30,401 nucleotides of DNA from a virus. The position numbers were made by a program, and so were the translations under genes. The stretch lies in the IMG/VR virus record IMGVR_UViG_3300021139_000082, positions 1 through 30,401 of that record; one strand, written 5' to 3'. Under the pieces are notes generated by a model that saw nothing but the letters and a program-made list of their open reading frames with translations, did not search any database and was not told the DNA's origin. Shown piece by piece: positions 773 to 13,071 of this stretch (the first letter of the stretch is position 1; every line of letters starts with the position of its first letter).

Positions 773-1216
773 ATGGAATCAGACATCCCCTATGAACCAA
801 AGCTAGGTCGACCTTCGGCATATACCGAGGAATTGGCTGACCTTTTTTGTCAGCGCATCGCTGATGGGGAGTCAACGGTAAAAATTTGCCGTGATGAGTC
901 AATGCCTGACCGCCGAACAATCTTCAAGTGGCTAGATAAGTATGAGGAATTTAGCCATAAATACGCAAAAGCGAAGGAAGTGGCTGTCGAAAACCTCATG
1001 GATGAACTCATCGACATTGCGGATGATTCAAACAACGACACCTATATCGACAACAACGGCAATGAGAAAACAAACAACGAAGTCGTATCCCGAAGCCGCC
1101 TAAGGGTCGACACCCGCAAATGGGTCATCATGAAGCTTGCACCGAAGAAGTATGGCGACAGGCTAGAGCAAACATCCGATACAACCCTCACCATCGTGAA
1201 TGCGCTCCAAATATGA
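773..1216 (+). CDS. terS: Terminase small subunit
   Basis: This 147-residue protein is the DNA-recognition subunit of the packaging motor. The N-terminal half has the usual phage TerS helix-turn-helix layout: GRPSAYTEELADLFCQRIADG, then STVKICRDESMPDRRTIFKWL, where the recognition helix is expected. A long charged helix for oligomerisation follows (FSHKYAKAKEVAVENLMDEL). The C-terminus (RKWVIMKLAPKKYGDR) matches the family's conserved end. ATG 773 is preferred; an in-frame GTG at 758 would add five residues but sits on the hairpin with no Shine-Dalgarno. ATG 773 itself has only AAAAGG 14 bases upstream, so initiation may be unusual. The stop overlaps the terL start. Confidence 0.9.
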   Translation: MESDIPYEPKLGRPSAYTEELADLFCQRIADGESTVKICRDESMPDRRTIFKWLDKYEEFSHKYAKAKEVAVENLMDELIDIADDSNNDTYIDNNGNEKTNNEVVSRSRLRVDTRKWVIMKLAPKKYGDRLEQTSDTTLTIVNALQI

Positions 1217-2481
1217 GAGTTGAACTCCCTTTGCTACATGATGGGCAAAGAGCCATTTACGAAAACCGAACCCGCTTTAATCGAATCCGATGCGGTCGCC
1301 GCTGGGGAAAGACAGTTCTTGCCGAAACCATCGGGGCGAATTCAGCCGCAAACGGTCGAAGGGTTGGCTGGTTTGTTCCCCAGTACAAAATCCTTGCTGA
1401 AGCATTCTCTGAACTCTCAGATATGCTCGACCCCATCATCACGACCTCATCTAAGATTGATGGCATCATCAATATCCGAGGTGGTGGGCGCATAGACTTT
1501 TGGACACTCGAAAATGAGCGAGCGGGTCGGTCAAGGAAATATCACGATGTCATCATTGATGAGGCGGCTTTCACAAAACCTAATATGCTCCATATTTGGA
1601 ATACAAGTATTAAGCCGACATTGCTGGATTATGTCGGCAACGCTTGGGTTCTCAGCACTCCAAATGGCGTGGGTGATGACAATTTCTTTTATAAGATTGG
1701 CGATGACCCTTTGCTTGGGTTTACTGACTTTCACGCTCCTACTCATACTAACCCTTTTCTCCCGAAAGAAGAATTAGAGAAGCTGGAAAAGGAAAACCAT
1801 CCGCTTGTCTTTCGTCAGGAATACCTCGCCGAATTCGTGGATTGGTCAGGGGTCGCCTTTTTCTCGCTGGACAAACTTCTATCCGCTGGGTTGCCTGTTG
1901 CTTACCCAGCCAAAACCGATGGGGTTTATGCAATCATTGATACAGCGGTCAAGGGCGGCAAAGACAACGATGGAACAGCCATCACCTATTTTGCGGTTAA
2001 TCAGTTTTATGGAAACCCGCTGGTCATCCTCGATTGGGACATCATCCAAGTGGATGGGGCGATGCTAGAAAACTGGATGCCCTCGGTGTTTCACCGCCTC
2101 GAAGAACTGGCAACCCTGACCAACTCCCGAAATGGGACTTTGGGCGCTTGGATTGAAGATGCCGCCGCTGGTTCGGTGCTTTTGCAACAGGGGCGCAACC
2201 GAGGCTGGAATGTTCACTCGATTGACTCGGGGCTTACAAGCGTGGGCAAAGATGAGCGAGCAATTTCGGTTTCGGGCTATGTCCACCAAGAAAAGGTCAA
2301 AATCTCGCAATATGCTTTTGATAAGGTCGTGACCTTCAAAGGCGTGACAAGAAATCATTTACTCAGCCAAGTGACAAGCTTTAGAATAGGCGACAAAGAC
2401 GCTTACAAAAGACCCGATGACTTGCTGGACACTTTTGTGTATGGAATCGCTATCGGGATTGGCGACAAATATGGATATTAA
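1213..2481 (+). CDS. terL: Terminase large subunit (ATPase and nuclease)
   Basis: This 422-residue motor ATPase pumps and cuts the genome at the portal. The Walker A motif is CGRRWGKT (27-34), Walker B is VIIDE (113-117), and the coupling motif is LSTPNG (147-152). The RNase H-like nuclease half begins near residue 236. Likely metal-binding acids are D243 in AIIDTAVKGG, D316 in AWIEDAAAG, and D402/D406 in RPDDLLDTFVYG. The ATG at 1213 forms an ATGA overlap with terS; the frame extends upstream to 1120 but that part lies inside terS. The length is typical for compact terminases of this type. The motif set makes the identity secure, but I cannot assign the packaging mode (cos or headful) from it. 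Confidence 0.96.
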   Translation: MRVELPLLHDGQRAIYENRTRFNRIRCGRRWGKTVLAETIGANSAANGRRVGWFVPQYKILAEAFSELSDMLDPIITTSSKIDGIINIRGGGRIDFWTLENERAGRSRKYHDVIIDEAAFTKPNMLHIWNTSIKPTLLDYVGNAWVLSTPNGVGDDNFFYKIGDDPLLGFTDFHAPTHTNPFLPKEELEKLEKENHPLVFRQEYLAEFVDWSGVAFFSLDKLLSAGLPVAYPAKTDGVYAIIDTAVKGGKDNDGTAITYFAVNQFYGNPLVILDWDIIQVDGAMLENWMPSVFHRLEELATLTNSRNGTLGAWIEDAAAGSVLLQQGRNRGWNVHSIDSGLTSVGKDERAISVSGYVHQEKVKISQYAFDKVVTFKGVTRNHLLSQVTSFRIGDKDAYKRPDDLLDTFVYGIAIGIGDKYGY

Positions 2482-2490
2482 GGACTGAGC

Positions 2491-5133
2491 ATGGCAGATA
2501 TTTCAATCAACAGTTCCTCGCTGGGTAGCAATTTGATGCAGTTGCTGGAGTCAAGCGATATTCAGCCCGGGACTGATACAGGCTATGGCATTTGTAAAGC
2601 CCTGTGGGAATATCACCCGCTCGGTGGCAAACTGGTCGAAAAGCCTGTGCGCCTTGCCCTGTCCAAACCCCGAATCATCACAGTCGATGCCCAGCCCAAA
2701 GAAATGCTGGTTGACGCTTTCGAGAAGGAAGCCCGAAGCCTTGGCGTGACCGCTCATGTGCGTGACACCATGTTCTTGAAGCGTTGCTATGGAGCGGCGG
2801 CTATTATTTATGGGGCTGAAGGCATTCCCACTACTGAGCCAATCGACCCTTGGGATTTGCCCAATTTGCGTTTGTACTTCAACCAGCTTGACCCGCTCAA
2901 CTTAGCTGGTTCTATCGTCACAAACCAAAACCCCAATTCTCCTGACTTCCAAAAGCCGAAGAACTACATCACAGCCGCTGGTCAACCCTACCATCCCAGC
3001 CGCTCGGTGACTGTGTTCAATGGCACACCGATTTATCTGAGTTTTCAATCTTCGGCGTTTGGCTTTACTGGGCGCTCGGTTTTCCTTCGTGCGCTGTATC
3101 CTATGCGCTCATTCATTCAATCAATGGTCACTGACGATTTGGTGACTTTCAAGGCTGGCTTGATTATTGCCAAGCAAAAACCCGCTGGTTCGATTGTGAA
3201 CCGAGCCATGCAATATGCCGCTGGCATCAAGCGTGGTTATTTGCAACAAGGCACGACAGGCAATGTGCTGTCAATTGATGTGGATGAAGAAATCCATGCG
3301 ATTGACCTGACCAACACCAACACAGCGATGACCACCGCAAGGGACAACATCATTGCCAATATCGCCGCCGCTTCGGATGTTCCCGCCCTATTGCTCAAGG
3401 ATGAAGCATTCACCCAAGGGTTCGGCGAAGGCACTGAAGACGCAAAAGCCATCGTGCAATACATCAATGGCTTGCGTGAAGAAATGAACTCGCTGTATGA
3501 GTTCTTCGACAACATCGTCATGCACCGAGCATGGAATGAGGAATTCTTCGAGTCGGTCAAGAATGCCTACCCTGACCAATACGGCAAGATGTCTTACAAG
3601 CAAGCCTTCTACCATTGGAAAAACTCATTCAAGGCTGAGTGGGATACCTTGATGGAAGAACCCGAAAGTGAGCGGGTAAAAGTCGCCGAAACCAAATTGC
3701 GTGGTTTGACTGATGTATTGAAAACTCTATTGCCTGTGGTCGACCCACAAAACCGAGCAATGGTTATTCAATGGGCGCAAGACAACATCAATGAGATGCC
3801 CGACATCTTCCAATCTAGTCTGTCGCTGGATAGTGAAGCCATCGCCGATTATGAAATCCCTGACGAAGAATTGAAGAACTTGCCAAGGCTTGATGCTTAT
3901 TTTGCGAGCAAAAAAGATTCTGCTGTGGGTGGAAGCAACACATACATTGACAACTTCTTCAGCAACCATCGCCATGATGCCCGAGCCGATGACTTCAAAG
4001 AGCATGAACATCCCCGAGACAATTCGGGCAAGTTCACCTCAGGCGGTGGTGGTGGCGGATTGTCAAGTATGACAACTTCACAATTGAGAACCAAAGGCTA
4101 TGACTTAGCACAAGAGCGAAAATATAAAGAAGCCGCCGAGCATTACCGAGCCGCATTGGAAAACTATCCTGAACACCATGAAGGTAGCCAATCAGCATTG
4201 GCAGATAAAAAGAAACTTGAAAGCTTGGCAAAGCGTTATGAATCCCTAGCCAATGAGCATGTAGAAAACGAAGCACCAGCCGCTGAAAAGCCAAAAGCCA
4301 AGAAAGAGCCAAACAAAAAAGAAGGCTATGTTGACAAGCATGGGTTCGAGCGGTCGCCAAATCTAACCACCGAACAGCGCAAAATTGAAAGTAGTTTCTA
4401 CAACGCCATCCGCACTAATAAAGCCAAGCTGGTCGAGGACTATTGGACTCGCATGAAGTCTGAGGACTTCCCGAACACCATTGACGCTGATGCGGTCAAA
4501 ATGCTTTCCCCAGCATTCCGCAAGAATCGCAACCTCGCTGGTGCTGTGCATGAGCCAAGTTCATACTTGTCGAAGGTCATCTACCAACAGGCACTGGACA
4601 AGAAAAAAGCCGCTGGTGACAAAACCCCTGTCGTGTTCACAGCTGGTGGTTCGGGTTCGGGCAAGTCAGCCACTACACCGCTCGCCGCTGGTTTGCTGGG
4701 AGTCGGTCAGGATGGCTTGATTTACGACTCGGTGATGTCCAGCTTCAAATCATCCAGCAAGAAGATTGACCAAGCCCTGAACAGCACTGATGCCGATGCC
4801 GCCATTGTGTACACCAACACCCCAATCGAGCGAGCCTTGCGTTTCAATGCTGGTCGTGAGCGGTCGGTGTCCCTCGATGTGCTGATTGACGCTCATGTAG
4901 GCGCAAGCAACACCATTCGGGAATTGTCCGAGCATTACAAAGACAACCCCAGAGTCAAAATCCAAGTGGTCAACAATCAGGGCGCTCCCAAGAATGTTCA
5001 CATGGGCGAACTGGGCGACATCCCCAAATACGACAAAGCCGAGTTGCGTACCAAGCTGGAAGGCATTGTCAAGGAGATGCACAGCGAAGGTCGAATCAGC
5101 GATGCCAAACTTGCCGTGTTGCTCGGAAAATAA
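2491..5133 (+). CDS. Portal protein (DUF1073-like) fused to a zeta-toxin-like kinase domain
   Basis: This 880-residue fusion follows terL with a 9-base gap and AAGGA upstream. Residues 1 to about 480 form a DUF1073-type portal, the dodecameric DNA gate of the head, with conserved-looking segments PLGGKLVEKPVRLALSKP and ASDVPALLLKDEAFTQGFGEG. A linker follows: EHPRDNSGKFT (506-516), then six glycines (518-523). Residues 530-590 resemble a TPR pair (YDLAQERKYKEAAEHYRAAL). The C-terminal 250 residues look like a zeta-toxin/PNK-type P-loop kinase: HEPSSYLS, Walker A GGSGSGKS (719-726), and the arginine-rich segment ERALRFNAGRERSVSLDVLIDAH typical of zeta proteins. Zeta kinases phosphorylate UDP-N-acetylglucosamine or nucleotide substrates; the substrate here is unknown. 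The DUF1073 family is, to my recollection, also named for Acb1-like anti-CBASS proteins, but no Acb1 phosphodiesterase domain is visible here. Confidence 0.9.
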   Translation: MADISINSSSLGSNLMQLLESSDIQPGTDTGYGICKALWEYHPLGGKLVEKPVRLALSKPRIITVDAQPKEMLVDAFEKEARSLGVTAHVRDTMFLKRCYGAAAIIYGAEGIPTTEPIDPWDLPNLRLYFNQLDPLNLAGSIVTNQNPNSPDFQKPKNYITAAGQPYHPSRSVTVFNGTPIYLSFQSSAFGFTGRSVFLRALYPMRSFIQSMVTDDLVTFKAGLIIAKQKPAGSIVNRAMQYAAGIKRGYLQQGTTGNVLSIDVDEEIHAIDLTNTNTAMTTARDNIIANIAAASDVPALLLKDEAFTQGFGEGTEDAKAIVQYINGLREEMNSLYEFFDNIVMHRAWNEEFFESVKNAYPDQYGKMSYKQAFYHWKNSFKAEWDTLMEEPESERVKVAETKLRGLTDVLKTLLPVVDPQNRAMVIQWAQDNINEMPDIFQSSLSLDSEAIADYEIPDEELKNLPRLDAYFASKKDSAVGGSNTYIDNFFSNHRHDARADDFKEHEHPRDNSGKFTSGGGGGGLSSMTTSQLRTKGYDLAQERKYKEAAEHYRAALENYPEHHEGSQSALADKKKLESLAKRYESLANEHVENEAPAAEKPKAKKEPNKKEGYVDKHGFERSPNLTTEQRKIESSFYNAIRTNKAKLVEDYWTRMKSEDFPNTIDADAVKMLSPAFRKNRNLAGAVHEPSSYLSKVIYQQALDKKKAAGDKTPVVFTAGGSGSGKSATTPLAAGLLGVGQDGLIYDSVMSSFKSSSKKIDQALNSTDADAAIVYTNTPIERALRFNAGRERSVSLDVLIDAHVGASNTIRELSEHYKDNPRVKIQVVNNQGAPKNVHMGELGDIPKYDKAELRTKLEGIVKEMHSEGRISDAKLAVLLGK

Positions 5134-5139
5134 TATAAT
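5111..5139 (+). promoter_or_regulatory. Sigma70-type promoter inside the portal 3' end
   Basis: TTGCCG (5111-5116), a 17-base spacer and TATAAT (5134-5139) give a near-consensus promoter. The -10 box straddles the portal stop region. Transcription would start near 5146, shortly before the ATG at 5160. It gives the small-gene island its own transcription, independent of the portal mRNA. Inferred from sequence only. Confidence 0.6.
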
Positions 5140-5159
5140 ACTTGTGTAAAGGATTAATC

Positions 5160-5342
5160 ATGGATTTTGAAGAAGCAAAAGCCAAGTGGCTTGAAAAGAT
5201 GGGTGGCAAGTCAATCGAGGAATTCGAGGAAGACAAGGAGCGCAAGCTTTTGAAGTCTTTCAATGAATTGGACAGCGACCCCAAAACTGAAAAGATTTGG
5301 GCGCAAGCCGAGAAAGAATCCGATGAGGGCGATGACTCTTGA
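5160..5342 (+). CDS. Small acidic helical protein, unknown function
   Basis: This 60-residue, strongly charged protein is rich in Glu, Lys and Asp (FEEAKAKWLEKMGGKS, FEEDKERKLL, ending KESDEGDDS) and is probably all helical. ATG 5160 is preferred over an in-frame TTG at 5142 because AAAGG sits at 5148-5152 with good spacing, and the start context AATCATG recurs in this genome. It is the first gene after the promoter at 5111. Its last bases overlap the next ORF. It has no recognised family. A DNA-mimic or protein-binding role is conceivable for such a small acidic phage protein, but there is no specific evidence. Confidence 0.65.
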   Translation: MDFEEAKAKWLEKMGGKSIEEFEEDKERKLLKSFNELDSDPKTEKIWAQAEKESDEGDDS

Positions 5343-5505
5343 CGAAGCCTATGAGGTAATCGAGAAATCCAGCGAGGGGGTGAGATACCCTTTTTCGCTG
5401 GTGAAGGAAGCACACCGCATCATTGACGAATCTCGAAAACAAGAAGAAAAGAAGCCCTCGATTGAGGGCTTTGTTTTTTCTGAAACCCAGCTTCCATTAT
5501 TCTGA
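5332..5505 (+). CDS. Small protein whose 3' end contains a terminator
   Basis: The 57-residue frame begins MTLDEAYEVIEKSSEGV and reads LVKEAHRIIDESRKQEEKKP before its tail. GAGGG lies just before ATG 5332; an ATG three codons earlier (5323) is an alternative. It overlaps the previous gene by 11 bases. The final 18 codons (about 5452-5505) are the sequence of a strong intrinsic terminator and its run-off. Messages ending there would lack the stop codon, so either the C-terminal extension is rarely made or the phage tolerates non-stop products. The family is unknown; the helix-rich N-terminal part looks coding. Confidence 0.5.
   Translation: MTLDEAYEVIEKSSEGVRYPFSLVKEAHRIIDESRKQEEKKPSIEGFVFSETQLPLF
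5452..5479 (+). terminator. Intrinsic terminator
   Basis: AAGCCCTC (5452-5459), loop GATT and GAGGGCTT (5464-5471) form a perfect 8-bp stem, followed by TGTTTTTT. It ends the unit started by the promoter at 5111 and is embedded in the 3' end of the ORF at 5332-5505. The next 120 bases (5506-5596) are AT-rich and hold no gene I can support. Confidence 0.85.
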
Positions 5506-5596
5506 AAACTCGGGTTTCTCATATATCTACACAAAAGAAACACAAGTATTAATATTTTGATGTGTTGTATTTTCATCATATATCTTAAAAAAAGTC

Positions 5597-5624
5597 TTGC
5601 AACGATGCTTAATTAGGATATACT
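5597..5624 (+). promoter_or_regulatory. Promoter, cassette copy 1
   Basis: TTGCAA (5597-5602), a 16-base spacer and TATACT (5619-5624). A 39-base leader follows, ending TCATTGAAAAGG AGTTAATC before ATG 5664. The same -35, spacing, -10 and leader ending recur at 6356 and 7204, which is the strongest support that it is a real promoter. Confidence 0.72.
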
Positions 5625-5663
5625 GAAGGTGTTGGTTAGGTAGTCATTGAAAAGGAGTTAATC

Positions 5664-5816
5664 ATGGAAGCCCTCAGAAGATACGGATATTTGGCTGTGA
5701 TGGGACTGCGTGAAGTACGAGTGATTTATGCGATTGCAGTCGCCAAAGGTCACGCTGGTCGTGCCGCCGCCGCCCTTGCCGCAATTGCCGAACTCGAAGC
5801 CGCTGGTTGTTATTAA
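5664..5816 (+). CDS. Small Ala-rich protein, unknown function
   Basis: This 50-residue ORF begins MEALRRYGYLAVMGLREVRV and continues through an Ala-rich helix (HAGRAAAALAAIAELEAAG) to TAA 5814-5816. AAAAGGAG lies nine bases before the ATG, and the gene directly follows promoter cassette 1. The next gene's Shine-Dalgarno (AAGGAG) begins at its stop codon. The sequence suggests two amphipathic helices and possible self-association. No family is recognised. It is supported by the promoter, the ribosome site and the compact spacing, not by homology. Confidence 0.6.
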   Translation: MEALRRYGYLAVMGLREVRVIYAIAVAKGHAGRAAAALAAIAELEAAGCY

Positions 5817-5827
5817 GGAGAAAAATC

Positions 5828-6088
5828 ATGAGACTGTACGAAATTGCAAAAACTGGCGCTGAGATTCGTAGGGGTTTGGTGATGATGTGCTTAGAGGGAT
5901 TGCCTGAAGAAGTCAGGGCTGTTCGCTGTGCCTTGGAAGGCAGAGGATACCCAAGCACTGAATGCACCGAGGAAGGTGAAAGAGAAGGCGAAGTGGCTGA
6001 GTTCTTCATGGTTCGCCGAGCCGAACTTGGTGAGTTTCGCTGGACTTACAAAGACATGAAAAGAGAAATCAGAGTTTTTGGACTTTAA
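5828..6088 (+). CDS. Small protein, unknown function
   Basis: This 86-residue ORF starts at ATG 5828 with AAGGAG eight bases upstream; the frame can be read further up from a TTG, but that would overlap the previous gene. It is rich in Arg and Glu, with EEGEREGEVAEFFMVRRAELG in the second half and KDMKREIRVFGL at the end. A first helix (LYEIAKTGAEIRRGLVMM) leads into a loop. It shares the promoter at 5597 with the preceding gene. I recognise no domain. Its position in a block of tiny promoter-borne genes suggests host-directed function, by analogy with morons. Confidence 0.65.
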   Translation: MRLYEIAKTGAEIRRGLVMMCLEGLPEEVRAVRCALEGRGYPSTECTEEGEREGEVAEFFMVRRAELGEFRWTYKDMKREIRVFGL

Positions 6089-6107
6089 TCATTGAAAGGA
6101 ATTTGAA

Positions 6108-6329
6108 ATGCTTCAACTCACTCGTTACAACAAACCAACCCCAATAATTGTTCTGACGGTCGAAGCGGGTTTCCCGCTGGTTGAGGTGGCTGGCAAACGC
6201 CTTGATACCTTGCGTGAAGACTTCTACGACAACGCTGTCAATTGCATGAACCGCCGCCCATTTTCTCCAATCGTGTCGCCCTATGACATCGCCCTGAGTG
6301 GTGGCGAGCCTTACGGTAACTGGAAATAA
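6108..6329 (+). CDS. Small protein, unknown function
   Basis: This 73-residue ORF is third in the transcript from the promoter at 5597 and is preceded by the repeated linker with GAAAGGA. It begins with a beta-like segment (PTPIIVLTVEAGFPLVEV), then a charged helix (KRLDTLREDFYDNAVNCM), and ends SGGEPYGNWK. It has one cysteine and no membrane segment. No family is recognised. After its stop the next 96 bases contain promoter cassette 2 and no visible terminator, so read-through from this gene into the next unit is likely. Confidence 0.62.
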   Translation: MLQLTRYNKPTPIIVLTVEAGFPLVEVAGKRLDTLREDFYDNAVNCMNRRPFSPIVSPYDIALSGGEPYGNWK

Positions 6330-6355
6330 ATTTTGTTGTATTTTTGCAATCCCTA

Positions 6356-6383
6356 TTGCAATTATGCTAAATAGGGATATACT
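6356..6383 (+). promoter_or_regulatory. Promoter, cassette copy 2
   Basis: TTGCAA (6356-6361), a 16-base spacer and TATACT (6378-6383), the same elements and spacing as at 5597. The 42-base leader contains AACTGTGGAAAGTAGTTAA, also found almost unchanged in copy 3, and ends with TCATTGAAAAGGAGTTAGTC before ATG 6426. Confidence 0.75.
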
Positions 6384-6425
6384 AAGAACTGTGGAAAGTA
6401 GTTAATCATTGAAAAGGAGTTAGTC

Positions 6426-6614
6426 ATGAAAGTTGATGTTTTTGTAAACCCAATGGGCAATGAAACTCAGTTCTTGGCATCGAGTCAAGCGGCTAAAGAA
6501 TTCTTTGCCGAAAGATTTGGATATGCGGCTGTGGGAGTCAATATCCTGACCAGCGAATCAGCCAATCTGCAAGAAGCGATTTATGAAGCTGGTTTGAAAA
6601 TGTATCTTGTTTAA
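6426..6614 (+). CDS. Small protein, unknown function
   Basis: This 62-residue ORF lies directly behind promoter cassette 2, with AAAAGGAG before the ATG. The predicted fold is mixed alpha/beta: a first strand (KVDVFVNPMG), a helix (SSQAAKEFFAERFGYAAVG), and a C-terminal helix (NLQEAIYEAGLKMYLV). Its composition is balanced and shows no membrane segment or metal-binding motif. No family is recognised. Its TAA forms the head of the next linker repeat, so it is translationally linked to the next gene. Confidence 0.65.
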   Translation: MKVDVFVNPMGNETQFLASSQAAKEFFAERFGYAAVGVNILTSESANLQEAIYEAGLKMYLV

Positions 6615-6633
6615 TCATTGAAAGGAAGTGACC

Positions 6634-6843
6634 ATGAAAACATTTGAAAAAATCCTCGCAAATCGCCTTTGGGTCAAATACATTGACGATGAGCGTGGTG
6701 ATGGAAGTAGCATCATCGTGACCCTTGACAACGATTATGTTTGGGATGATGAGCGTGATTGTGGAGTCCGAGGGTTTGACACTGTGAAGGAAGTCGAACT
6801 GGCAACCCGATTCGACAATGTAATCAACATCAAGAACCTGTAA
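6634..6843 (+). CDS. Small acidic protein, unknown function
   Basis: This 69-residue protein is acidic in its middle: YIDDERGDGSSIIVTLDND and YVWDDERDCGVRGFD. ATG 6634 has AAAGGAAG six bases upstream; a GTG two codons earlier (6628) overlaps that ribosome site and is rejected as the start. The sequence suggests a small beta-rich fold followed by a helix (VKEVELATRFDN). It is the second gene of the unit from the promoter at 6356. A UUCG hairpin follows its stop. No family is recognised, and the high acidic content is the only notable trait. Confidence 0.65.
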   Translation: MKTFEKILANRLWVKYIDDERGDGSSIIVTLDNDYVWDDERDCGVRGFDTVKEVELATRFDNVINIKNL

Positions 6844-6850
6844 TCAACCA

Positions 6851-6864
6851 GCCCCTTCGGGGGC
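6851..6864 (+). other. UUCG-loop hairpin without a T tract
   Basis: GCCCC, loop TTCG and GGGGC form a very stable 5-bp hairpin between two genes. The same stem and loop with a T8 tract forms the terminator at 7885. Here ATCAAGGAG follows instead, so it cannot act as an intrinsic terminator. It may protect or separate mRNA segments, or be a decayed terminator. The Shine-Dalgarno of the next gene starts 4 bases after it. Confidence 0.6.
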
Positions 6865-6878
6865 ATCAAGGAGAGACT

Positions 6879-7055
6879 ATGTTAATCATGACCCTGCCCA
6901 ATCGTGAATATGGAATTGAAGCCCAAATCGTCAAAAACAATCGGGGGTATGGTGTTCGCTTGTACGACACCGATGCCGAGGAATTTTTGCCGATGATGAA
7001 GATTTTCAAAATCCTCGACAAAGCTGTCGAGTATGCAAAGAAGTGTGTTCGTTAA
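6879..7055 (+). CDS. Small protein, unknown function
   Basis: This 58-residue ORF has AAGGAG five bases before ATG 6879; a second ATG three codons on (6888) is a weaker candidate. It opens MLIMTLPNREYGIEAQIV, suggesting two strands, then GYGVRLYDTDAEEF and an amphipathic helix (MMKIFKILDKAVEYAKK) near the C-terminus. The pattern resembles small phage proteins that bind a partner through one sheet and one helix, but I cannot name a family. Its stop heads a further copy of the linker repeat. Confidence 0.6.
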   Translation: MLIMTLPNREYGIEAQIVKNNRGYGVRLYDTDAEEFLPMMKIFKILDKAVEYAKKCVR

Positions 7056-7072
7056 TCATTGAAAGGTTCAAA

Positions 7073-7168
7073 ATGAATTCCTACGATACCGAAGACAAAA
7101 TCGTGATGGTCGCCTCATTCTTGGCGGCGATTTTTCTAGCTGTTGCCTGTTATTTGGATTGGTTGTAA
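7073..7168 (+). CDS. Very small single-pass membrane protein (31 aa)
   Basis: The ATG at 7073 follows a copy of the linker repeat with AAAGG seven bases upstream. The peptide has a polar acidic N-terminus (MNSYDTEDK) and then a continuous hydrophobic run, IVMVASFLAAIFLAVACYL, ending DWL. That is a convincing one-pass transmembrane segment with the acidic tail probably outside the bilayer. It is the last gene of the unit from the promoter at 6356. A role at the host membrane, such as superinfection control, is possible but not shown. The linker and the composition together make it credible despite its size. Confidence 0.55.
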   Translation: MNSYDTEDKIVMVASFLAAIFLAVACYLDWL

Positions 7169-7203
7169 ATGTGCAACAAACAAAAAATATTTTCACTAAC
7201 CCC

Positions 7204-7231
7204 TTGCATTTATCCTAAATAAGTGTATTAT
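7204..7231 (+). promoter_or_regulatory. Promoter, cassette copy 3
   Basis: TTGCAT (7204-7209), a 16-base spacer and TATTAT (7226-7231). The 41-base leader carries AGAACTGTGGAAAGTAATTAA and ACATTGAAAGGAAGTAATC before ATG 7273, matching copy 2 closely. It drives the single gene 7273-7869, which ends in a strong terminator. Confidence 0.72.
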
Positions 7232-7272
7232 TAGAACTGTGGAAAGTAATTAAACATTGAAAGGAAGTAATC

Positions 7273-7869
7273 ATGAAAGTCGCTGAAAATCGTTATGTTC
7301 CCGAAGGTTATGAGTTGGTCGCTCGTGACGAAGGTTTGGGTTTGGAAGTGTTCGCTGACAAAACTCGCAATGTTGCTATGGGGTTCAGCGGTCGCCGCAA
7401 CAAACCCGACTTCAACTATCGCTTCAAAAATGCCGAAAAAATGCAAGCGTACATTGAAGAATTTGTGGTTGATGTGATTGGTCGGGCAAAAGTCAAAGAG
7501 AACCGCAAAGCAGAGCGCCTCGCCGCTAATCGTAATGCTGTCGTAAAAGTCGGCGACATCTTTCGGGCAAGCTGGGGTTATGACCAAACCAACATTGACT
7601 ATTACGAAGTTGTTGCGGTAAAAGGTCAAATGGTTGATGTGCGTGAGATTGGTCAACAGCGTGAAGGCAATGGTTGCTATGACCAAGGGGTTTGTGTTCC
7701 AGTACCCAGCGCTTATCGTGGTGAAGTGATGCGGAAAAAAATTCAAGCGTGTGGCGAGAATGTTTATTTCCGAATCAACAGCTTCAGTAGCGCCTACTTG
7801 GAAAAACCTGTTGCTGTCGTGGCTGGTGTGCCAATTTTCAAAGAAAGCACTTGGACTGCTTACGCCTGA
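7273..7869 (+). CDS. 198-residue protein of unknown function with its own promoter and terminator
   Basis: This is the largest gene of the island and forms a complete moron-like unit: promoter 7204, ribosome site GAAAGGAAG, gene, terminator 7885. The first 75 residues look like a compact alpha/beta domain (EGYELVARDEGLGLEVFAD, then NYRFKNAEKMQAYIEEFV). A basic linker follows (KVKENRKAERLAANRN), then a beta-rich domain starting VKVGDIFRASWGYDQTNID with YYEVVAVKGQMVDVREI, which resembles small barrel folds. Two cysteines lie in CYDQGVCVPVP. I recognise no family with confidence. A long minus-strand frame across it is a shadow. Confidence 0.75.
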   Translation: MKVAENRYVPEGYELVARDEGLGLEVFADKTRNVAMGFSGRRNKPDFNYRFKNAEKMQAYIEEFVVDVIGRAKVKENRKAERLAANRNAVVKVGDIFRASWGYDQTNIDYYEVVAVKGQMVDVREIGQQREGNGCYDQGVCVPVPSAYRGEVMRKKIQACGENVYFRINSFSSAYLEKPVAVVAGVPIFKESTWTAYA

Positions 7870-7884
7870 TAAGGCAAAACCGAT

Positions 7885-7908
7885 AAGCCCCTTCGGGGGC
7901 TTTTTTTT
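7885..7908 (+). terminator. Intrinsic terminator with UUCG loop
   Basis: AAGCCCC (7885-7891), TTCG and GGGGCTT (7896-7902) make a 7-bp stem with a UUCG tetraloop followed by eight Ts in total. It closes the small-gene island; AAAGGAG for the next gene starts right after it. Confidence 0.9.
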
Positions 7909-7917
7909 AAAGGAGAA

Positions 7918-8172
7918 ATGATGTTAAATGCAATATTCGCAAAGCTAAAAGACAAACCAGTTAAAGTGACCGTAAAGCGTAGGCGTGGGGGCATTGGCTA
8001 TGTGCCGACACCCGAGGAAATTAAAAACGCTCGGGGCGAGGTTTCGCAAGCCACTTGTGCAAGCTTAATTTATACTACCCAAGCGAGGTGGTCAGACTAT
8101 GAGACAGGTCGAAGCCGAATGCACCCAGCAATGTGGGAATTATTCAGGAAGAAAATAAATGACATTCTTTGA
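7918..8172 (+). CDS. XRE-like helix-turn-helix protein
   Basis: This 84-residue protein matches a common phage HTH type. After a basic N-terminus (KVTVKRRRGG), residues 29-78 read PTPEEIKNARGEVSQATCAS, LIYTTQARWSDYETGRSRMH and PAMWELFRKKI. This is the spacing of an XRE/Cro-like four-helix DNA-binding domain, with the recognition helix near QARWSDYETG. Such proteins can regulate phage genes or be passengers. It follows the island terminator by ten bases, has AAGGAG upstream, and overlaps the next gene by 14 bases. ATG 7918 and the adjacent ATG 7921 are equally possible. It could act on the repeated promoters upstream, but that is a guess. Confidence 0.75.
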   Translation: MMLNAIFAKLKDKPVKVTVKRRRGGIGYVPTPEEIKNARGEVSQATCASLIYTTQARWSDYETGRSRMHPAMWELFRKKINDIL

Positions 8173-8953
8173 AGTTCTAACCGCCGCAATCAACGACATC
8201 ATCGAACATGGCTTTGACAGCCAAAAACGAATTGATGATTGGGTGAAGAAAATCAGAGAAGCCGCACTTCGGGAAATGATTCCCGACTCGAAAATCCAAG
8301 CGGAACTTGAAAAGTCGCTGAATGCGGCTTTTTCTCGTATGGTCACAAAGGGCGGCTTGGTCAATGCCAATGTGAGCAAATATGATGTCGACCGACTCAA
8401 GCCCAAGCTTCGGGCTGAACTCGACCGCCGCATCATGGCAAGCACCAATCTAATCAAGTACAACCGAGAAGAAGCCTTGAGCAATGTATTACGCCGCTTT
8501 GAAGGCTGGGCGACATCCATTCCAAAGGGCGGCTCGGATGTGGTCGACCGTAGGGAAGAAAAACAGAATATTAGGAAATCCCTTGGCAAGCTTCCATTTG
8601 AACAGCGCCGAGTAATCATCGACCAAACGCACAAGCTGGTTTCAAACATCAATGAAATCGTTGCGGTCGACAATGGCGCAATTGCCGCTCGCTGGCATTC
8701 ACATTGGAAGCAAGCTGGCTACAACTACCGCAAAGACCACAAAGAGCGTGACGATAAGGTTTATGTGATTCGTGGAAGCTGGGCGCATGAGAAGGGTTAC
8801 ATCAAGCCGATTAATGGTTATACTGATGACATTACTACACCGGGCGAAGAAGTTTTCTGCCGCTGTAGTTATGTCTACCTTTACCATTTGAGACAGGTTA
8901 AAGGATTGTTGACAAAAAAAGGTGAATTGGTTTTACAATCATCAAAAATATAG
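8159..8953 (+). CDS. Head morphogenesis protein (Mu gpF/SPP1 gp7-like)
   Basis: This 264-residue minor head protein belongs to the Mu gpF/SPP1 gp7 type, which binds the portal and is packaged in small numbers. The N-terminal 150 residues are helical and charged. The diagnostic C-terminal part holds RWHSHWKQAGYNYRKDH at about 193-209, VYVIRGSWAHEKGYI, and the closing PGEEVFCRC motif near 240, with the Cys/His arrangement seen in the family. AGGAAG lies before ATG 8159. In most genomes this gene directly follows the portal; here the small-gene island separates them, which suggests later insertion. A promoter for the capsid genes lies inside its last 45 bases. Confidence 0.85.
   Translation: MTFFEVLTAAINDIIEHGFDSQKRIDDWVKKIREAALREMIPDSKIQAELEKSLNAAFSRMVTKGGLVNANVSKYDVDRLKPKLRAELDRRIMASTNLIKYNREEALSNVLRRFEGWATSIPKGGSDVVDRREEKQNIRKSLGKLPFEQRRVIIDQTHKLVSNINEIVAVDNGAIAARWHSHWKQAGYNYRKDHKERDDKVYVIRGSWAHEKGYIKPINGYTDDITTPGEEVFCRCSYVYLYHLRQVKGLLTKKGELVLQSSKI
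8909..8939 (+). promoter_or_regulatory. Promoter for the capsid unit
   Basis: A perfect TTGACA (8909-8914) is followed after 19 bases by TACAAT (8934-8939), 5/6 to consensus. The spacer is long, which should lower activity. It lies in the 3' end of the gpF-like gene and would start RNA near 8946, before ATG 8967. Together with the terminator at 13094 it defines a protease/scaffold-decoration-capsid transcript. Confidence 0.55.
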
Positions 8954-8966
8954 GTAGGGTGTTTCT

Positions 8967-11402
8967 ATGCCATTTCAGTCGGAAAACCAAAGGAAAGCGA
9001 TGTTCGCCGCCGCATCGGGCAAAAGCAATATCGGTATCCCCAAGGAAGTGGCTGAAAAATTTATTAAGCATAGCGAAGACGACACCCTCGATGCCCCTTC
9101 CCTTTTGGCATTGCCCACCGAAAAATCTGACGCTGGCGACAAAGACCCTCGAAATGAATTGAAGGGTATGTCCGAAATGTTGCAAAGCATGATTGGTGAA
9201 ATTAAAGCCATGAAGCAAGATTCGGAAGCTTGGGAAACCAAAGAAGGCAAAAACAAAAATGGCGGCTTGAATGAAAAGGGTCGTGAGTCTTACAACAAAA
9301 CTCATGGCGCACATTTAAAAGCCCCCCAGCCTGAAGGCGGCTCTCGCAAAGAATCTTTTTGCGCTCGCATGAAAGGCATGAAAGCCAAGCTGACTTCCAG
9401 CAAGACAGCGCATGACCCTGATTCCCGCATCAACAAATCTTTGCGTAAATGGAAATGCGACAGCGATTCCATCAAAGAAGATTTGGCAAAAATCTGCGAC
9501 TCAATGATTGATTACGCTCAATCAATACCTGACGAAGACCCATGCTGGGAAGGTTATAAGCAAGTTGGCATGAAAGAAAAAGATGGCAAGGAAGTGCCAA
9601 ATTGTGTGCCTGATGCCGAAAATACAGCGACCCTAGTGCCTACAGCGCCCCCAGTTGTCGAACCAGTTGACAAAATGGCTGGTGCGGCTGGTCGTGCTTC
9701 GGGCATCATGTTTCTGACTGATGATGGACAAGTTTTGATGATTCGCCGAGGTCTAGGTGGTGGGGACTACCCCGGCACTTGGTGCATCCCCGGTGGACAC
9801 CAAAACGAAGGCGAGACTTTGGAAGAAGCCGCTCGCCGGGAAACCGAAGAAGAAACGGGCATCAAATATGAAGGCAAGCTCGATGTGCTTTTTGACGATG
9901 GGCAATTCTGCTATTACATCGCACGAAACGCAAAAAAAGAAGATGTCAAGCTTAACTACGAATCCAGCGGGTTCGATTGGTGCGATGCAAAAACACCGCC
10001 CATGCCTCTGCACCCCGGACTCGAAATTGCCCTTCGTGTTGCGGAAGCCAAAACCGAATACGACAAATCAGAATTGATTCGTGAAGGCATTTTGGCAAGC
10101 CCCCAAATGTTTGCCAATGTTATGTTGCTCGCAATTCGGATTACTGGCACAGGGCTTGCATATCGCTCAAGCATTGAGGAAAATGTTTGGCGTGACCCTT
10201 CTTTGTATTTGAATGATGAATTCTTGAAACGATGCAACGGCTTGATTGTCGTGCGTGACCATCCCGAGACAGCTGTGCTGACTTCGGATGAATTTAAAGA
10301 TAGAGCCATTGGAAGTGTTATTCTTCCATACATAAAAGGCGATGAAGTTTGGGGTATTGCGAAAATTTACGACCAAGATTCAGTAAATGAAATCTTGGAA
10401 GGTGAAGTAAGCACATCCCCTTCAGTGGTGTTTGACAGCACCGCTGGAAACACTACACTTACAACCGAGAATGGTACGCCGCTCTTGATTGAAGGTGTGC
10501 CCTTCCTTTTAGACCATATTGCAATCGTCACGAAAGCAAGGGGTTCTAAAGGTGTTTGGGACAAAGGCGGCGACCCTGCCGGAGTTTTATTAACTAACCC
10601 TGAGGTGTCTGATATGACAGAAAAAACGATTGAGCCGAAGGCAGATGCCCAAGGCGATAAACTGGATACCCTTTTGTCGATGATGAGCGGTCTTGTCGCT
10701 CGAGTTGACGAAATGGAAAAAAACCTTCCTGCTCCCCCCTTAGTCACTGCGGCTGATAAAAAAGCCAAAAAAGATGACGATTCCAAATCTCGCATGGATA
10801 ATGATGATGAAGATGAGGAAAAAGAAAAAAAAATGAAAAAAGACGATGACATGAAATCCCGCAAGGATTCCAAAAAGTCTCGCAAAGATGCTGAAGGCTC
10901 TGACAAAGGCGAGGAAGAAGCACCCGCTGGCGAAATGAAGCCTGATGACGATTGCAGAATGGATGATGACGAAGAAGAAGCCGCTCGCAAAGCTGATGAA
11001 GAAGCCGCCGAGTATGCTGACGCTCAAGCCAAGTGCGACAGCGTTTTGGCAAGCTTCGGCAAATCTGCATCTCGCCCATTGCAAGGTGAAAGCCTGATGG
11101 CTTACCGCAAACGCTTGTTGCGTGGTTTGCAAGCCTATAGCGACTCTTACAAAGATGTGAACTTGAATGCAATCAAAGATGGCAAATTGCTTTCAATTGC
11201 AGAAAAACAAATCTTTGCTGATGCCGCCGCCGCTTCTCGTGCTTCAGTGGGTATGCCCGCTGGTCAATTGATTGAGATGCACGAAAAAGACCGTGCTGGT
11301 CGTACCATCACCAAATTCAAGGGTTCGATGTCTGCTTGGCTGGATGACTTCAAAGTCCCCGCCCTTCGTGCGACTCAGTTCCATACTTCTAACACTCGCT
11401 AA
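8967..11402 (+). CDS. Nudix hydrolase - DUF2213 prohead protease - scaffold fusion
   Basis: This 811-residue multi-module protein has, in order: residues 1-40, a short motif (MPFQSENQRKAMFAAASGKS) frequent in phage proteins; 98-164, a DUF6321-like segment (NGGLNEKGRESYNKTHGAHL to KWKC, with SFCARM at 130-135); 191-215, a DPCWEGYKQVGMK to VPNCVP motif; about 246-352, a Nudix hydrolase with an intact Nudix box G277-I299 (GX5EX7REUXEEXGU); about 370-540, a DUF2213-type prohead protease domain with STSPS at 482-486; and 560-811, an Asp/Glu/Lys-rich scaffold-like region ending in an ordered C-terminus. Protease and scaffold in one chain before the capsid gene is a known phage layout. The Nudix and small modules are additions of unknown substrate. 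The Shine-Dalgarno is modest (TAGGTAGGG). Confidence 0.85.
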   Translation: MPFQSENQRKAMFAAASGKSNIGIPKEVAEKFIKHSEDDTLDAPSLLALPTEKSDAGDKDPRNELKGMSEMLQSMIGEIKAMKQDSEAWETKEGKNKNGGLNEKGRESYNKTHGAHLKAPQPEGGSRKESFCARMKGMKAKLTSSKTAHDPDSRINKSLRKWKCDSDSIKEDLAKICDSMIDYAQSIPDEDPCWEGYKQVGMKEKDGKEVPNCVPDAENTATLVPTAPPVVEPVDKMAGAAGRASGIMFLTDDGQVLMIRRGLGGGDYPGTWCIPGGHQNEGETLEEAARRETEEETGIKYEGKLDVLFDDGQFCYYIARNAKKEDVKLNYESSGFDWCDAKTPPMPLHPGLEIALRVAEAKTEYDKSELIREGILASPQMFANVMLLAIRITGTGLAYRSSIEENVWRDPSLYLNDEFLKRCNGLIVVRDHPETAVLTSDEFKDRAIGSVILPYIKGDEVWGIAKIYDQDSVNEILEGEVSTSPSVVFDSTAGNTTLTTENGTPLLIEGVPFLLDHIAIVTKARGSKGVWDKGGDPAGVLLTNPEVSDMTEKTIEPKADAQGDKLDTLLSMMSGLVARVDEMEKNLPAPPLVTAADKKAKKDDDSKSRMDNDDEDEEKEKKMKKDDDMKSRKDSKKSRKDAEGSDKGEEEAPAGEMKPDDDCRMDDDEEEAARKADEEAAEYADAQAKCDSVLASFGKSASRPLQGESLMAYRKRLLRGLQAYSDSYKDVNLNAIKDGKLLSIAEKQIFADAAAASRASVGMPAGQLIEMHEKDRAGRTITKFKGSMSAWLDDFKVPALRATQFHTSNTR

Positions 11403-12045: not shown

Positions 12046-13071
12046 ATGTCAGGTTTCGCACCTTCATTTGTAACTGTCAATCCTAACTACATGATGCCTG
12101 AACTCATCATGCAGTACAGCCTTGCCTCGGGCGCATTCACGACTCTCGCCACTGAGAATCCAATGGCTCGTTTGGGTGAAGCGGATTTGTATGTTTACGC
12201 TAAAAAAATCCAATTGACAACTCAAGTTGCATCTAACCAATCGCAAGTGAACCAACTGCCTAGCGCATCGGTCATCCCTTCGATGATTAGCACTGCCACT
12301 TACCGTATGCAAACTCGTGCCCAGTACGACAACTTCGATGAAGCCGCCACTGGTCACTGGGGTTATGCACTGCCTGAAGCGATGCGCCTCGCCGCTCGCC
12401 AAGGTATTGCACAGCAAATGCGTAATGCGTTGTTGTATGGTTTCAACCCATCAAACGGCGAAGGCTTGTTGAACACTTCGGGTGCAACAACTGCTTCTCT
12501 CGGCGCTGACACCAATGGCAACACTGGCTACAGCAACTGGGATTCAGGTCAATTGGCTCAATACTTGTTGAACATGATTGGCGCTTTGAAAACCCGCACC
12601 TTGCAAATCGGTCAACCTTTGCGCTTGGTGTTCCTCGCTCCCCAGCGTTTCATCAGCCAAATCAGCTACTCAGGCGTTGTGTCTCTGACTCAATTCCAGC
12701 GTATCGGTGCTGGTGTTGAAACTGCCGCTGGCTTGGTGGAAACTGTCGCTAAGTGGGCGGGTGGTGATGATGTGTCTTTCGCTGTGGATGACACCCTTAT
12801 CGGTCAAGGTTCAGGCGGTACTGACGCAATCTTGTTGATTGCCCCTGAATTGAAGATTCCTAAGGCTAACGACCGCATCAACACCAACATCTTCGCAACC
12901 TTGACACCTAACCAAACAGCAACATCTTTGATGCTGTGCGATGTGTCTGCTCCTACTGAAATCCCTACGCCTATTGCTGACGGTGGTATCACTACCCTGT
13001 ACACAATGCGTTCGACTTCAGGCTGGGGTATTCGCCCTGAAGCCTTGACAATCTTGTCAGCCGCTTACTAA
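12046..13071 (+). CDS. Major capsid protein (DUF2184-like)
   Basis: This 341-residue shell protein has strong expression signals (AAAAGGAGAATAAAT before the ATG) and the composition of a phage capsid. Segments FDEAATGHWGYALPEAMRLA, ALLYGFNPSNGEGLLNT and LVFLAPQRFISQ fit the DUF2184 (HK97-fold) capsid family, including the GXXXXXXGLLN segment seen in its members. The C-terminus ends TSGWGIRPEALTILSAAY. Unlike HK97 there is no obvious N-terminal delta domain, consistent with the scaffold being in the upstream fusion. A strong terminator follows 22 bases after the stop, as expected for a highly expressed unit. Confidence 0.9.
   Translation: MSGFAPSFVTVNPNYMMPELIMQYSLASGAFTTLATENPMARLGEADLYVYAKKIQLTTQVASNQSQVNQLPSASVIPSMISTATYRMQTRAQYDNFDEAATGHWGYALPEAMRLAARQGIAQQMRNALLYGFNPSNGEGLLNTSGATTASLGADTNGNTGYSNWDSGQLAQYLLNMIGALKTRTLQIGQPLRLVFLAPQRFISQISYSGVVSLTQFQRIGAGVETAAGLVETVAKWAGGDDVSFAVDDTLIGQGSGGTDAILLIAPELKIPKANDRINTNIFATLTPNQTATSLMLCDVSAPTEIPTPIADGGITTLYTMRSTSGWGIRPEALTILSAAY

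Follow-up and report, generated by a model that had tools for sequence, protein, structure and literature searches.

A DUF1073 phage portal protein that looks like a carrier for exchangeable toxin-like enzymes, here a zeta_1-type kinase

The stretch of DNA studied here (the window) is positions 1 to 30,401 of the IMG/VR virus record IMGVR_UViG_3300021139_000082. It encodes a phage packaging and head module, and its phage group is one of freshwater bacterial viruses. We found that the portal gene of the window continues past its family domain, in the same open reading frame (ORF), into a predicted zeta_1-type kinase, as a sequence-only reading of this DNA had proposed. The portal looks like a carrier for exchangeable toxin-like enzymes, with the kinase here and others in the same place in close relatives. 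Our preferred reading, with a probability of roughly 60%, is that the portal carries an exchangeable virion-borne effector, here a zeta_1-type kinase that would harm the host or rivals, with a small acidic ORF as its restraint. The portal-kinase frame is laid out as follows:

2491..5133, plus strand: portal-kinase fusion ORF of 880 amino acids, a single open frame with Pfam and PHROG portal matches.
2491..3870, plus strand: portal core of the DUF1073/Phage_portal_3 family, residues 1-460; most relatives stop at this point (Pfam, PHROG and portal comparison).
3988..4059, plus strand: joint motif DDFKEHEHPRDNSGKFTSGGGGGG, residues 500-523 (alignment of portals and effector ORFs).
4087..4182, plus strand: TPR-like segment, residues 533-564 (Pfam); in L092 (5622-7049) a GNAT-like insert, a weak Pfam match, takes this place between joint and kinase.
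4342..5130, plus strand: zeta-type kinase domain, residues about 618-880 (profile search, AlphaFold2 model and structure comparison).

The identity of the portal is given by PHROG (residues 20-466, E=3e-52) and by the Pfam family Phage_portal_3/DUF1073, matched over residues 37-347 (E=3.5e-16) with 59.3 bits against a cut-off of 33.8. Behind the core, the joint consists of DFKEHEHPRDNSGKF and then a run of glycines (residues 518-523), which is the glycine linker of the sequence-only reading. That reading had also placed a pair of TPR-like repeats after the linker. One weak match to TPR_2 was found (residues 533-562, E=0.0016, under the curated cut-off), so a single repeat stands and the pair does not. 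The segment is dispensable and is entirely absent from the sister L003, though the kinase domain of L003 is 98% identical to that of the window. The start of the kinase had been set at nucleotide 4321, which is residue 611; the fold itself begins near residue 618. Because the fused frame recurs in six independent contigs (L002, L003, L108, L112, L197 and L198), an assembly or frameshift artefact was ruled out as its source. An internal start at M527, behind the glycine run, was also rejected; it is not conserved in L003, and its DNA lacks a good Shine-Dalgarno match.

The window domain alone matched gonococcal zeta_1 (PDB 6eph) in a sequence search of solved structures (E=1e-5), and profiles built with 4 and with 52 relatives matched it with E=8e-17 and E=6e-22, respectively. 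A single-sequence structure was uninformative (predicted local distance difference test, pLDDT, 54.6), and a model made by AlphaFold2 on the 52-sequence alignment, with a mean pLDDT of 90.4, was used in its place. With this model, the top Foldseek match was again 6eph (E=4e-12), and VIA-align gave Z 25.0 at 2.4 Å over 249 residues, the modelled fold of the zeta_1 subclass spanning the whole domain. The runners-up were far below, namely AvrRxo1 (Z 12-13), streptococcal zeta and PezT (10-11) and polynucleotide kinase (9). Against the Pfam family Zeta_toxin (PF06414), the window domain scores 20.3 with a curated cut-off of 22.3, which is passed by many relatives, e.g., L112 (24.3) and L060 (59.1). 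The main active-site features, all placed by alignment with the help of PMC5923241, are these:

4645..4668, plus strand: P-loop GGSGSGKS, residues 719-726, in which K725 is the lysine equivalent to Lys115 of zeta_1.
4489..4491, plus strand: D667, the counterpart of the catalytic base (Asp56) in gonococcal zeta_1, kept without change in all 52 homologues.
4855..4863, plus strand: R789 and R791, an invariant arginine pair in the region of zeta_1 Arg175/Arg181.

Both the P-loop and the arginine-rich segment ERALRFNAGRERSVSLDVLID (residues 780-800) were where the sequence-only reading had seen them. The active-site residues of zeta_1 are Asp56, Lys59, Asn75, Lys115, Arg175 and Arg181 (PMC5923241), and the numbering of 6eph agrees with that paper. 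In the alignment, these correspond to D667 (Asp56), K670 (Lys59), A683 (Asn75), K725 (Lys115) and, for the arginine pair, R789/R791, a pairing in which two alignments differ by at least one residue. D667, H687, E688, K725, K758, R789 and R791 are invariant in all 52 homologues. With the P-loop lysine and the catalytic aspartate both present, the model indicates that the C-terminal domain is a P-loop kinase of the zeta_1 type whose active site is intact. A catalytically dead domain that serves the portal in structure or assembly, as its fusion to a structural protein might suggest, is very improbable, since every catalytic residue is kept across divergent homologues, selection is purifying (the ratio of nonsynonymous to synonymous rates, dN/dS, is 0.10-0.37 among the scorable pairs of slot kinases), and many close portals lack the domain or have an unrelated enzyme.

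As Asn75, which contacts UDP-N-acetylmuramic acid (UDP-MurNAc) in zeta_1, is replaced by Ala683 in the window and by Ser or Ala throughout the homologues, the preference of zeta_1 for UDP-MurNAc cannot be assumed here. Of the two residues contacting the carboxyethyl group in a UDP-MurNAc 4'-kinase, Lys59 is kept and Asn75 is replaced, and we do not class the window domain as such a kinase. UDP-N-acetylglucosamine (UDP-GlcNAc) may plausibly be a substrate, with the reservation that the Asn75 contact is missing. The same replacement would suit a zeta-like kinase with another target, such as nicotinamide adenine dinucleotide, as for AvrRxo1, or nucleic-acid ends, which would serve counter-defence or metabolism and not wall poisoning. 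AvrRxo1 and the polynucleotide kinases are the next structural matches, and Acb1 is found at the same position in a distant DUF1073 portal. We regard this explanation as possible but doubtful, since in both sequence and structure zeta_1 is far nearer than any other match, and the agreement extends to Asp56 and Lys59.

Effectors are exchanged at the end of the portal or in the ORF that abuts it, and we call this place the slot. Cultured relatives of the portal (44-46% identity) have about 470-485 amino acids, and a MuF-like gene follows directly. Scans with the portal returned 175 portal frames, many of which share a contig with others, and most of the frames stop about 10-25 amino acids past the core (residue 455-460) with MuF next. 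The zeta kinase is fused to the portal in the window and the six contigs named above, and it is the abutting or next ORF after the portal in L092, L093, L094, L102, L204 and L205. Some relatives have a Tas1-like (Rel) domain, fused or separate (PDB 6ox6, E=1.3e-15 and 1e-12), whose RelA_SpoT match is under the Pfam cut-off. The slot of L097, L103, L196 and L209 holds an ORF with the HExxH motif of a metalloprotease, and that of L138 an ART-like ORF; both kinds were assigned from motifs read in the sequence and had no confident match among PDB sequences or Pfam. The ART-like ORF is preceded by a 158-amino-acid ORF nearly identical to the one preceding the zeta kinase in L205. The sequence-only reading had supposed that the portal tail is a variable effector slot, and the collected portals, with zeta, Tas1-like, HExxH, ART-like or no effector, bear this out.

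The joint D.F.E..HPR[DG]..G.F with glycines was found in every portal bearing a whole effector domain. Separate zeta and Rel ORFs also have it, behind a shared short N-terminus, and the metalloprotease ORFs and L138 have another joint, HW[IV]TL.G. Portals that are 99.1% identical differ in their effector (HExxH in L103, Rel in L104) or in its presence (none in L096, HExxH in L097), and L093 and L096, whose portals are 96% identical, also differ in having one. On the portal tree there are 9 changes of effector state against a shuffled mean of 18.4, i.e., the trait is clustered and yet swapped repeatedly.

Among distant DUF1073 portals, L264, which is from a bacterial genome, has Acb1 as its C-terminal domain (Pfam PF23474, E=1.1e-45), and this confirms the link between DUF1073 and Acb1 named in the sequence-only reading. 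Acb1 is an anti-CBASS (cyclic oligonucleotide-based antiphage signalling system) nuclease (PMC9117128), unrelated to the window kinase in fold and function, and L264 shows only that the position carries effectors. A further distant portal shares the joint and gave a weak ParB-like match. A joint of the HPRDxxGKF type was also seen before or within other head-module proteins (L133 8560-9804; L131 3775-4986; L169 1071-1796), one of them a topoisomerase IB (Pfam E=4e-23) and another of ParB-like look, and this motif may be a general joint or processing signal. The genome locus L276 has a DUF1073 portal frame of about 1,087 amino acids with a long extension and a motif like HNPYHDQKGRFTH. L083 (Rac-SA53 record) was fetched as a portal relative and left out of the comparisons; its public record annotates heat-labile enterotoxin genes upstream of terminase.

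The sequence-only reading missed a candidate antitoxin gene beside the kinase, and also the fact that a class of portal-effector fusions was already published (PMC5512222). This gene starts 27 bases past the portal-kinase stop, and the features around it are as follows:

5160..5342, plus strand: acidic ORF of 60 amino acids with an isoelectric point of 4.4 that could be the kinase's antitoxin or immunity gene (co-occurrence with the kinase).
5111..5139, plus strand: promoter-like site TTGCCG-17-TATAAT before the acidic ORF, where the portal gene ends (sequence scan).
5332..5505, plus strand: ORF of 57 amino acids overlapping the acidic ORF, only in the window, L002 and L003 (ORF comparison).
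5451-5472: terminator-like hairpin (sequence scan).

The acidic ORF family is present in 6 of the 6 kinase loci whose slot is covered as far as MuF and in none of the 107 de-duplicated loci without the kinase (Fisher p 4e-10, with relatedness ignored, the kinase loci being about four lineages). It was also found in L092, L094 and L204, where MuF was undetected in the available stretch. In the window, L108 and L205, the ORF comes immediately after the kinase and is preceded by a -10 element of the TATAAT type; in the window and L205, hairpins with T-runs stand downstream of it. Because of this strict co-occurrence and its own promoter-like site, we suggest that the acidic ORF probably restrains the kinase in the producing or lysogenic cell. 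The pair is proposed as a toxin-antitoxin candidate open to direct testing. In three Rel loci (L090, L111 and L123), the slot of the Tas1-like portal fusions holds an HD_4 alarmone-hydrolase-like gene (L090 9020-9541, Pfam E=6e-16), which may parallel the alarmone synthetases reported to be kept in check by hydrolases (PMC12691689). A convergent ORF of 85-107 amino acids over the kinase stop (L094 7586-7843, minus strand; also L092 and L093) is conserved in its clade.

Several points, the missing Asn75 contact among them, weigh against our preferred reading. The acidic ORF is kilobases away from the kinase in L092, L094 and L102, and in L102 it stands just before MuF. Searches of solved structures and Pfam found no relative of it. 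The portal-MuF region holds 8 promoter-like sites against 3.7 in shuffles, and many small ORFs besides, so the promoter upstream of the acidic ORF is weak evidence. L104 and L105 have a Rel effector and a slot without the HD gene. Moreover, a domain fused to the portal would be injectable only once cut off, and such cleavage is our supposition.

In the preferred reading, the conserved joint of the portal gene would be followed by one effector enzyme out of an exchangeable set. Because portal subunits form part of the head, the kinase is expected in the virion, in about twelve copies if the ring is the normal dodecamer. It may be cleaved at the joint and delivered into the cell, and the NUDIX and DUF2213 protein at 8967..11402 is a possible protease for this step. 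In the infected cell, the kinase would most likely phosphorylate a small UDP-sugar or nucleotide-like metabolite, which would hurt the host or rival elements and favour the phage.

A scan of viral contigs with the kinase gave 93 relatives, of which 80 were kept. Most are separate genes of about 290-360 amino acids, which, in the five loci looked at and as judged by sequence features, lie shortly upstream of terminase genes. Others form part of large proteins that also contain ART-PolyVal, ddrB-ParB, LPD22 or SLT domains, and in the phage group of the window the kinase is on the portal or adjoins it. Homologues with the same invariant residues occur in dozens of further contigs, which is beyond chance. 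The window domain had no match in isolated-phage records; with the L004 homologue as the query, these gave one match (32% identity) to a gene annotated 'thymidylate kinase'. The 398 sampled genomes from the phylum of G002 gave a single weak partial match to the kinase profile, and PADLOC gave no match.

The kinase might also act in the producing cell, where, as a late product, it would stop the synthesis of wall precursors around the time of lysis or keep competitors out; its attachment to the portal would then serve only regulation or disposal. The portal gene belongs to the head operon and is late, E. coli was lysed by zeta_1 expression (PMC5923241), and the candidate neutraliser adjoins the kinase; cleavage and ejection, for their part, are steps that we infer. 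We consider action in the producing cell unlikely, as other phages have the same domain next to packaging genes or within large polyvalent proteins, and the Acb1 at the end of a distant DUF1073 portal would be sensible early in infection.

Compared with gonococcal zeta_1 (PDB 6eph/6epg/6epi; PMC5923241), the window kinase is alike in the whole fold, the P-loop lysine, the catalytic Asp, the Lys59 equivalent and the region of the Arg pair. It differs in being fused to a phage portal, in its alanine at Asn75 and in that no relative of the known antitoxin was detected beside it. In the portions of Iyer et al. (2017; PMC5512222) that we consulted, fusions in portal-terminase phages join 2H, PBECR and InPase domains to portals and zeta-like and RelA/SpoT domains to MuF, and wall precursors are proposed as the target of the zeta-like kinase. 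The same portions do not mention a portal with zeta or with a Tas1-like synthetase, the joint motif, effector exchange between nearly identical portals or a linked acidic ORF. Jamet et al. (2017; PMC5576092) reported MuF polymorphic toxins, with variable C-terminal toxin-like domains in the packaging module and downstream small ORFs as candidate immunity genes. In contrast, the carrier here is the portal or its abutting ORF, and the MuF-like gene (8159-8953) is separate and unextended. As both papers describe such fusions, we class ours within this known kind, an effector domain fused to a packaging-module protein in the window and the six contigs. Portal-effector and zeta-MuF fusions are therefore already published; the exact zeta-portal fusion appears new, no description of it having been found in a literature search of open papers. 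Tas1/Apk1-type and phage MuF-fused Apk2 alarmone synthetases are known, and toxSAS enzymes have immunity proteins encoded next to them (PMC12691689). The Tas1-like slot domain is of the same kind (6ox6) but portal-fused, and belongs to relatives only, not to the window.

Going further, we put at about even odds that DUF1073 portals and their abutting ORFs are a polymorphic-toxin-like system of their own. The carrier would be the portal or a short shared N-terminal head, the joint would perhaps be cut by the head protease, the effectors would be interchangeable (zeta kinase, alarmone synthetase, metalloprotease, ART and, elsewhere, Acb1 or ParB), and small neutralisers such as the acidic ORF would be expressed separately. 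The portal is an essential and highly conserved ring that DNA passes on its way into and out of the head. If it doubles as an exchangeable effector carrier, this would explain the loading of enzymes near the DNA exit in tailed phages, and the joint motif with the portal-MuF slot would be a simple handle to find new phage effectors and neutralisers.

The surrounding head module contains the following genes:

1120..2481, plus strand: terminase large subunit (PHROG).
8159..8953, plus strand: MuF-like head morphogenesis gene without effector extension, at the far end of the slot (PHROG).
8967..11402, plus strand: NUDIX and DUF2213 head-maturation-protease-like protein (Pfam, PHROG).
12046..13071, plus strand: major capsid protein (Pfam, PHROG).

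The protein at 8967-11402 joins DUF6321, a NUDIX domain and a DUF2213 head-protease-like part in one chain of 811 amino acids, and pieces of it are common to some PHROG portal and protease families. Searches for tRNA genes and Rfam families found none in the window. Between the portal and MuF (5134-8158) there are about 2-3 kb of small ORFs with terminator-like hairpins, which look like an array of small gene cassettes and vary in number and content among the relatives.
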